Positions 23,836 through 25,575 of a stretch of 43,394 bases of DNA are shown here, one piece after another. How positions within the stretch are numbered: position 1 is the first letter of the stretch; each line of letters begins with the position of its first letter. Below the pieces are notes generated by a model. The model saw nothing but the letters and a program-made list of their open reading frames with translations, did no database searches and was not told the origin of the DNA. A program made the translations under genes and the position numbers. Origin of the DNA: Albidovulum sp. (GTDB taxonomy: Bacteria > Pseudomonadota > Alphaproteobacteria > Rhodobacterales > Rhodobacteraceae); the NCBI GenBank assembly GCA_015487815.1, contig WFPA01000242.1:1-43394 (forward strand), written 5' to 3'.

Positions 23836-24960
23836 TCACCTCTTGCTGCGCCGCACGCTCACCGGCCCCAGCGGATGATCCGCATGGGGGTAACGATGGT
23901 GATGGTGGTGATGGTGGTGATGGTGCTCGTCATCATGATGGTGATGGTGATGCGCGGCCATCTCGAGACGGCACTCCCCGGTGCAGAAATCGTCACACAG
24001 GGTGCATGCCGCCACATTCGAGCCCGGCGCCGAAGCCCCCTGCCCCTCGACATGGTGATGATGACTTTCCTGAGGCGTGCCCACTTCCTCTTCGAAACCG
24101 AGAATTCGCGTGCGGTACTTGCACATCGCACAGCTTGGCGGCGGCGCCTCTCCCATCTGCTCCATGATACGTTCGACGAAGGCCGCCATCACCTCGGGAT
24201 GATCATTGAGATAACCGGCCTTGACGAACTCGATCCCGGGATGGGCGGTGGCAACCCGGTCGGTGAAGCCGTATATCCGATCGACGAGAATGCCCGTGAA
24301 GAGCATGTAGGGGAAAACGACAATGCGCCGATAACCGAGCTTCGCCGCATGCTCCAGCGTCGGCTGCACCAGCGGGAAGGTGACGCCGGAATAGCCGACT
24401 TCGCACCAGCCGAAGCCCATGCCCTCCCACAGCATCCGCGCCAGCTTGGCGACATTGCCGTTGGCGTCGGGATCGGAGGCGCCGCGGCCGATGACGACAA
24501 GACAGGTTTCCTCGGGCGGTACCGGGCCGGAGGCGGCATCGGCCGCGGCCATCGCTTCGCGCACCCGGTCGCCGGCGGCCGCCAGAAGATGGGCATCGAT
24601 GCCGAGCTCGCGGCCCATGGTGATCTCGATGCCATGTTCGGCGGCATAGCGCGCGAGCACCGTCGGCACGTCGTTCTTGGTGTGCATGGCGGCGAACAGC
24701 ATGCCGGGAACCGCATAGATGCGCGTGCAACCGGCCTCGCGCAGCCGGTCGAGCCCGTCGCGGATCACCGGGTTGGCGAATTCGAGATAGCCGTGGGCGA
24801 CTTCCCAGCTTTCGGGCAGAAAGGCCGGCAGCCTTTCTGCAAGAGCTGCAAATTCGGCCACGGCCCGCTCGTCCCGCGAGCCATGGCCACAGAGCATGAC
24901 ACCGATTCTGCCGCCATCCTCGGCGGTTCGGGGAAGATCTGTCGGGGGAAGCATGTCCAT
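23836..24960 (-). CDS. cbiX: Sirohydrochlorin cobaltochelatase CbiX-like, with Cys-rich and His-rich C-terminus
   Basis: [86 protein letters not shown]. Start 24960 chosen by SD AGGAG at 7 nt spacing. Confidence 0.9.
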
Positions 24961-24961
24961 C

Positions 24962-25148
24962 GGCGGTCTCCTCATGCAACGCCCGAAGAGACCGCCTCGC
25001 GGCGGGTGACGACGCTGGCCTCCGATCCCCGGTTTGGGTCGATCTCGGCGCAGCCCACCTCTCGGGCCCCTCGGACTTCGTCCTCTCCCGCTTACTTCCG
25101 CATGAAGGATGCTGCAAGCGCAAAGGCCCCGGCGCCATCGCTTGCATG
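24962..25148 (-). promoter_or_regulatory. Candidate structured 5' leader of cbiX (riboswitch-like or leader-peptide element)
   Basis: Inverted repeats 24962-24970/24988-24996 (9 bp, covers part of SD), 24992-24996/25001-25005, 24973-24979/25142-25148 (7 bp), 25113-25120/25139-25146 (8 bp). Confidence 0.5.
24972..25058 (-). CDS. Possible leader mini-ORF (28 aa) upstream of cbiX
   Basis: GTG start with AGGGG 8 nt upstream; VGCAEIDPNRGSEASVVTRREAVSSGVA-stop; high GC3; TGA overlaps an upstream in-frame ATG of cbiX. Confidence 0.35.
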   Translation of the reverse strand: MGCAEIDPNRGSEASVVTRREAVSSGVA

Positions 25149-25188
25149 CGCGTGACAATTCGGCCTAGGGAAGCGCGAAGGAGGCGCC

Positions 25189-25575
25189 ATGACCACGACC
25201 ATCACCATATGCAGCACCTGTCGTCACATGGGCCGGGACCTGCCCGAAGGCGCGGTGCGGGACGGGGAGCGGCTGGCCGAGAAGGTCGCGCGTCTCGTGC
25301 CGGAAAACGGTGATCTGCGCGTTCGCCGCGTGGCCTGTCTCATGGGCTGCGATCACGGTTGCAATGTCGCCATCCAGGCCGAGGGCAAGCTTGCCTATGT
25401 GCTGGGCCGCTTTGCACCGGAGGAGGAGGCTGCGCGCGCGATCCTTGCCTATGCCGCGCTTCATGCCGCCAGTCCTTCGGGGCAGGTGCCTTTCCGCGCG
25501 TGGCCGCAAGGGGTGAAGGGGCATTTCGTCGCCCGGATTCCTCCGCTCGACATCGAGGGGGAGGACAAGGCGTGA
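25189..25575 (+). CDS. DUF1636 family protein (Cys-rich, metal-binding-like)
   Basis: MTTTITICSTCRHMG...RRVACLMGCDHGCNVAIQAEGKLAYVLGRF; divergent from cbiX, next to cobC. Confidence 0.85.
   Translation: MTTTITICSTCRHMGRDLPEGAVRDGERLAEKVARLVPENGDLRVRRVACLMGCDHGCNVAIQAEGKLAYVLGRFAPEEEAARAILAYAALHAASPSGQVPFRAWPQGVKGHFVARIPPLDIEGEDKA

Follow-up and report, generated by a model that had tools for sequence, protein, structure and literature searches.

What controls the corrin (vitamin B12) operon of Albidovulum sp., and does the leader of its first gene contain a riboswitch? The window, by which we mean the whole 43,394-nt stretch analyzed here (contig WFPA01000242.1 of assembly GCA_015487815.1, Rhodobacteraceae), carries this operon on its minus strand in the order cbiX, cbiC, cbiET, cbiG-cobJ, and cobM, with the cbiX ATG at 24960. 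Rhodobacteraceae are major marine B12 producers. Few aptamers are as large or as well studied as cobalamin riboswitches, whose ligand site is believed to require a four-way junction and a kissing loop. For this locus, the original prediction proposed a conserved, structured cbiX leader with a sequestered Shine-Dalgarno (SD) sequence, representing either a diverged cobalamin riboswitch or a new leader class. All of the sequences that it quoted exist in the leader, and its general proposal is supported both by covariation and by the statistics of SD sequestration described below. The cbiX leader is a conserved cis-acting structured RNA. Covariation among relatives' cbiX leaders, which had been suggested as a check, was indeed found, although it resides in a domain that the prediction did not contain.

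This domain was recognized by comparing the cbiX leaders of relatives and extends from 25083 to 25007 of the minus strand (GGACGAAGTCCGAGGGGCCCGAGAGGTGGGCTGCGCCGAGATCGACCCAAACCGGGGATCGGAGGCCAGCGTCGTCA; Table 1). A covariance model constructed from seven relatives' cbiX-leader sequences (R1) identifies it as the sole match in the genome to which the window belongs. Two further models were employed: R3, built only from 77 cbiX leaders of named genomes, and R2, whose building set took in a classical cobalamin riboswitch (L113). The pattern of covariation fits a three-way junction in which P1 closes straight after the P3/P4 arm. The most variable parts are P3 and outer P4. Near-invariant positions comprise the CCC/GGG of inner P4, the GA bulge, and G3, A4, G7, and G8 of the joining strand J2/3, the last assessed over 118 eleven-nucleotide examples. 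The apex of P4, YGACCC-loop-GGGR, is found in 156 of 162 relatives.

Table 1. Features of the cbiX leader and gene, in the direction of transcription (window coordinates)
Feature	Position	Strand	Evidence and remarks
-35 box TTGCAG	25112-25117	minus	TTGC at matching position in relatives
-10 box TAAGCG	25089-25094	minus	TATACC-like in relatives; TATA/TATG peak at -13 to -11 in relatives
Three-way-junction RNA (candidate aptamer)	25007-25083	minus	about 76-77 nt; R1 84 bits, E 7e-19; R3 74.5 bits, E 1.9e-16
P1 5' strand GACGA	25078-25082	minus	pairs with 25008-25012; 99% of cells paired, both-side changes in 5/5 pairs (100-sequence alignment)
P2 hairpin GTCC-GAG-GGGC	25066-25076	minus	97.7% of cells paired; both-side changes in 3/4 pairs
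J2/3, 11 nt, CCGAGAGGTGG	25055-25065	minus	consensus C-R-G-A-R-M-G-G-T-K-G
P3, enclosing P4	25014-25054	minus	25051-25054 with 25014-25017, extendable; 95% of cells paired; 4/4 pairs covary
P4 with GA bulge (25039-25040) and apical YGACCC-N5-GGGGR	25024-25044	minus	98.7% of cells paired; 6/7 pairs covary
P1 3' strand TCGTC	25008-25012	minus	partner of 25078-25082 (100-sequence alignment)
Hairpin CCGCC-GCGA-GGCGG	24992-25005	minus	mutually exclusive with sequestor; retained in L024; folding
12-bp SD sequestor GGCGGTCTCTTC / GAGGAGACCGCC	24962-24996	minus	z -4.8 vs shuffles; pairing probability about 1 in folded leader
Shine-Dalgarno GAGGAG of cbiX	24968-24973	minus	sequence
cbiX	23836-24960	minus	first corrin-operon gene; 374 aa, His-rich tail; PF01903, E 1e-50

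Fitting alignments to a model biases pairing counts towards that model, and slid and shuffled controls were used as a guard: in an alignment of 100 sequences, 97.8% of cells pair, compared with 84.5% in shuffled and 36-55% in slid controls. Compensatory changes on both sides occur in 18 of the 20 pairs of this alignment, and none of 500 shuffles reaches any of five measures. A set of 77 sequences selected through CbiX gave closely comparable values (97.6% of cells pairing; both-side changes in 16/20 pairs).

The element is tightly linked to cbiX. Within the family, R1 matches 102 of 397 genomes, nearly always once per genome. One hundred of these matches were retrieved and realigned, and 99 lie upstream of cbiX or of a DUF6732-cbiX pair; roughly a quarter of the 99 directly precede cbiX, and the rest have one small DUF6732 ORF between. 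The remaining match, L113, turned out to be a cobalamin riboswitch of the classical type that precedes a cobW-like gene. Conversely, when 80 loci were chosen solely for the similarity of their CbiX proteins, 77 proved to have the element on the coding strand; these loci come from named genomes including Roseovarius, Jannaschia, Yoonia, Octadecabacter, Amylibacter, Limimaricola, and Tropicimonas. Matches without RF00174 in class- and phylum-level samples outside the family are followed by cbiX (L142, L265), DUF6732-cbiX (L143, L144, L264, L266), or HupE-cbiX (L145). In one further genome (G1298; L263/L268, the latter on G1298:C11), the element heads a cobE-cobA-cobB-cobC-cbiB operon that lacks cbiX. 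This case widens the regulon of the element and favors a corrin-pathway signal over cobalt alone. Weak matches at L121, L122, L123, L147, and L267 were set aside as chance, their helices not being intact or no B12 genes being in view.

The intervening DUF6732 ORF (PF20506, AHPGH...AGHDHW) is present in about three-quarters of relatives (L026 and some 74 other family loci; also L264 and L266) and absent in the window. A HupE/UreJ permease occupies the same slot in L145, which suggests a role for DUF6732 in cobalt uptake.

A conserved promoter precedes the RNA. Among 162 distinct upstream regions, 121 (37+60+24) have TTGC at -36 to -34 from the motif start, and a few have it at other positions; a TATACC-like -10 sequence follows at 17-bp spacing and ends about 6-8 nt before the motif. 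Given these boxes just ahead of the motif, transcription should start where P1 begins, at about 25081-25083. Because the promoter ends just before the element, two helices originally assigned to the leader fall at or upstream of it: the 5' arm (25142-25148) of a 7-bp CATGCAA/TTGCATG helix is upstream of the -35 element, and the 3' arm (25113-25120) of an 8-bp stem overlaps the -35 box. Both are at chance level: in dinucleotide shuffles of the 187 nt from 24962 to 25148, perfect inverted repeats of at least 7 bp and at least 8 bp arise in 79% and 34% of cases, respectively. In addition, the 7-bp helix is disrupted in L003, where the 3' arm reads ATGACATG and CbiX is 93% identical. Two sequence resemblances likewise found other explanations. 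The segment GTAAGCGG, put forward as an aptamer core, is the -10 region, and the B12-box-like AGGAGACC-GCC (AGGAGACCGCC) is the SD itself, with no such box seen in relatives' leaders.

The proposal of a sequestered SD fared better. Shuffles yield perfect repeats of at least 9 bp in 10% of cases and shorter ones frequently, so among the repeats originally listed only the 9-bp sequestor, GGCGGTCTC/GAGACCGCC, is somewhat unusual by itself. This helix is real; with GU and AU pairs, it grows to 12 bp (24985-24996 with 24962-24973) and buries the whole GAGGAG, at a z score of -4.8 relative to shuffled spacers. The window is the extreme of a broader set. Across 90 leaders, upstream pairing to the SD is stronger than with shuffled spacers (mean z -0.9), reaching p≤0.05 in 25 leaders versus 4.5 expected. 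The distance from the element to the start codon is about 50 nt in most relatives, and, by this enrichment of SD sequestration, the putative expression platform is near the ribosome-binding site. The hairpin CCGCC-GCGA-GGCGG, which had been proposed as an anti-sequestor, is present, is exclusive with the sequestor, and is retained in a same-genus relative (L003/L024). A hairpin just after P1 is common in relatives; as a general feature it is weakly enriched (mean z -0.56, with p≤0.05 in 9/67), and the anti-sequestor is clearly conserved only inside the genus.

Thermodynamic folding of the window leader leaves the SD buried throughout and places P1 and P2 outside the minimum-energy state. Since the equilibrium fold buries the SD and disfavors P1 and P2, any switching would probably need to be co-transcriptional. 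In L266, which belongs to another family, P1 itself abuts the SD. Two alternative pairings were inspected by eye and rejected: J2/3 (GAGAGG) with the anti-SD (CCUCU) shows no co-variation, J2/3 position 6 changing to C without a matching change, and the pairing of J2/3 with CACC in the minimum-energy fold of the window leader is not retained in L025 and L026.

We compared the element with known RNAs. Rfam 15 yields no gathering-score match in the window, and around the leader even E≤10 brings up no relevant family, consistent with the suggestion of a new leader class. The Rfam Cobalamin and AdoCbl-variant models, recommended as a check, do not match the leader even at E≤10, and RF00174 likewise gives no match at gathering score or at E≤10 for the window, L026, L265, or L142. 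Our own models point to a distant relationship nonetheless. R1 matches L113 (RF00174, 98 bits) at E 2.9e-6 in that locus's genome, and R2 matches another classical riboswitch, L146 (122 bits). Because R2, built with L113, is contaminated, our conclusions regarding kinship rest on R1 and R3. Over 98 kb surrounding 31 classical riboswitches, the four top-scoring R3 matches are L113 (38.6 bits), L146 (30.9), L001 (24.3), and L170 (21.8), all in P3-J3/4-P4 and on the correct strand; L113 and L146, half of this evidence, had been selected by the models themselves, whereas L001 (E 3.9e-4) and L170 (E 1.8e-3) had not. L001 is associated with cbtA by Pfam, and L170 with a CbtA-like gene. L113 (G122:C4) is the closest classical relative found: R1 and R3 score it at 37-39 bits, and R2, the model including it, at 46 bits.

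The element thus resembles half of the cobalamin riboswitch. As in RF00174, it occupies the leader of a B12 gene and contains a hairpin that leads into a purine-rich strand of 11 nt, which resembles J3/4 and has GG at positions 7-8, as well as a P4 arm with an internal loop. SD sequestration, a known output of RF00174 members, also occurs here, judging from sequence. The cbt-type RF00174 members of the family have the apex YGACCC-N5-GGGG in common with the cbiX element. This apex is present in the classical riboswitches L001, L166, L170, L171, L113, and L146; elsewhere in the panel, the apex of P4 varies. The differences are equally clear. In the cobalamin riboswitch, a four-way junction formed by P3-P6 encloses the ligand (PMC11260477), whereas the element has a three-way junction, with P1 closing directly after the P4 arm, and measures about 76 nt rather than about 200 nt. 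Conserved features of B12 riboswitches include the B12 box and the sequences of L5 and P6 (PMC11260477, or the RF00174 alignment). No L5-like segment (CCCCCGC, the kissing-loop half that partners with L13) follows P3/P4 in aligned members, P6 GCCACTG and J6/3 are absent from the element, the P6 sequence is absent from inspected leaders, and no B12 box (AGCCAGGAGACCTGCC-like) was seen between the motif and the start codon in relatives' leaders read by eye. With the core absent and RF00174 unmatched, we describe the element as kin to one half of the cobalamin riboswitch rather than as a member of its family: the distant kinship implied by a "diverged cobalamin riboswitch" stands for the P3-J3/4-P4 half, and the family membership does not.

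Other known leader RNAs offer partial parallels. AdoCbl-variant RNAs (RF01689), reported as marine (PMC2864571), are also reduced relatives of the cobalamin riboswitch, but the element is unmatched by this model at E≤10. The HRC-8-4, uORFC-8-2, and SAM/SAH motifs of Rhodobacterales, which are linked to cco, cysS, and metK genes, are likewise order-restricted leader RNAs discovered by comparative genomics (PMC8632094, PMC2864571). The main texts of the 26-genome, 50-genome, and 104-motif surveys mention no similar corrin- or cobalt-linked motif.

We consider it reasonably probable that the element is a compact candidate riboswitch, uncatalogued in Rfam 15, that is probably corrinoid-linked and translational and that is kin to half of the cobalamin riboswitch. 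The RNA has its own promoter and should begin at P1. Over its first ~76 nt, the cbiX mRNA forms a conserved three-way junction with P1 at the 5' end, the hairpin P2, an 11-nt purine-rich joining strand, and P3 capped by the GA-bulged P4, and this junction is the probable sensor through which a translational riboswitch would govern the corrin operon. Within about 50 nt lies a start site whose SD an anti-SD strand can bury; in this genus, that strand may alternatively fold into a separate hairpin. We infer that ligand binding would bias the choice between sequestor and hairpin, in whichever direction control runs. Because the P3-J3/4-P4 half is kept and the half comprising P5, P6, J6/3, and the kissing loop is missing, the element most likely descends in reduced form from the cobalamin riboswitch or is a sister to it, and a corrinoid or corrin precursor is the likeliest candidate ligand. 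A more specific version is plausible, though we would not bet on it: a new class of compact corrinoid or corrin-precursor riboswitch that arose through loss of P5, P6, J6/3, and the kissing loop, fashioned a new pocket from J2/3 and the GA-bulged P4, and serves the cobalt-early B12 operon across Alphaproteobacteria. The parts needed for the known cobalamin-riboswitch pocket are absent from the element, a point against the favored reading.

Several other explanations deserve consideration. The RNA might instead sense cobalt(II) or another metal, such that CbiX and the corrin pathway are made only when cobalt is present, with the likeness to the cobalamin riboswitch convergent or functionally irrelevant. 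The strongest linkage of the element, to the cobalt chelatase gene cbiX and to small membrane proteins of the DUF6732/HupE type, speaks for this idea, but the operon that it heads in G1298 encodes nothing that handles cobalt directly, and the element has a half-domain in common with the cobalamin riboswitch. The NiCo riboswitch, the known RNA sensor of cobalt that would come into question for a Co2+ ligand, has a different fold, and the element is unmatched by its model at E≤10. Overall, we regard metal sensing as rather unlikely. We think it about as unlikely that the element is bound by a regulatory protein or small RNA, with YGACCC-N5-GGGG as a recognition hairpin that also occurs in the leader of the cbtAB cobalamin riboswitch, rather than being a metabolite aptamer. 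The near-invariance of the P4 apex and its recurrence in classical cbt-type riboswitches of the family would fit such a site; a near-invariant unpaired J2/3 framed by the covarying helices of a three-way junction is, however, how an aptamer is usually built, there is no known candidate partner, and the element spans many families of Alphaproteobacteria that have no obvious regulator in common.

An ordinary but divergent cobalamin riboswitch (RF00174 or RF01689) overlooked by the models would account for the common P3-J3/4-P4 half and the B12 operon context. We judge this very improbable, as RF00174 and its variants are unmatched at E≤10, the L5, P6, and B12-box sequences are absent in inspected leaders, and the ~50 nt before the start codon leaves no room for them. 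The same genome does contain one classical cobalamin riboswitch, upstream of cbtA, and RF00174 scores it at 124 bits. Finally, a conserved promoter and ribosome-binding region with no regulatory RNA is scarcely credible: the conserved promoter exists, but this explanation is contradicted by the compensatory changes, which affect 18/20 and 16/20 pairs and exceed those of all shuffles.

The compact corrinoid-linked riboswitch that we favor bears on how such RNAs evolve and are deployed. With well over a hundred examples, the element is about one-third the size of a cobalamin riboswitch, keeps one half of it, and is found on B12 biosynthesis genes. If our reading is correct, it is an example of how a large riboswitch may be pared down or put to a new use, and it makes available a small sensor of corrins or cobalt. 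It also suggests that Rhodobacteraceae may control the B12 pathway by means of this element, while the ordinary cobalamin riboswitches of the same genomes serve cobalt uptake (cbtAB).

Several additional features of the locus are worth recording. The CbiX protein of the window (23836-24960) bears a long histidine-rich C-terminal tail after conserved CxxC-type cysteines. Upstream of the cbiX ATG, a minus-strand frame stays open into the leader, with a TTG at 25158, probably as an effect of high GC content only. A DUF1636 gene (25189-25575) is divergent from the cbiX operon, and a promoter region of about 100 nt is common to both.
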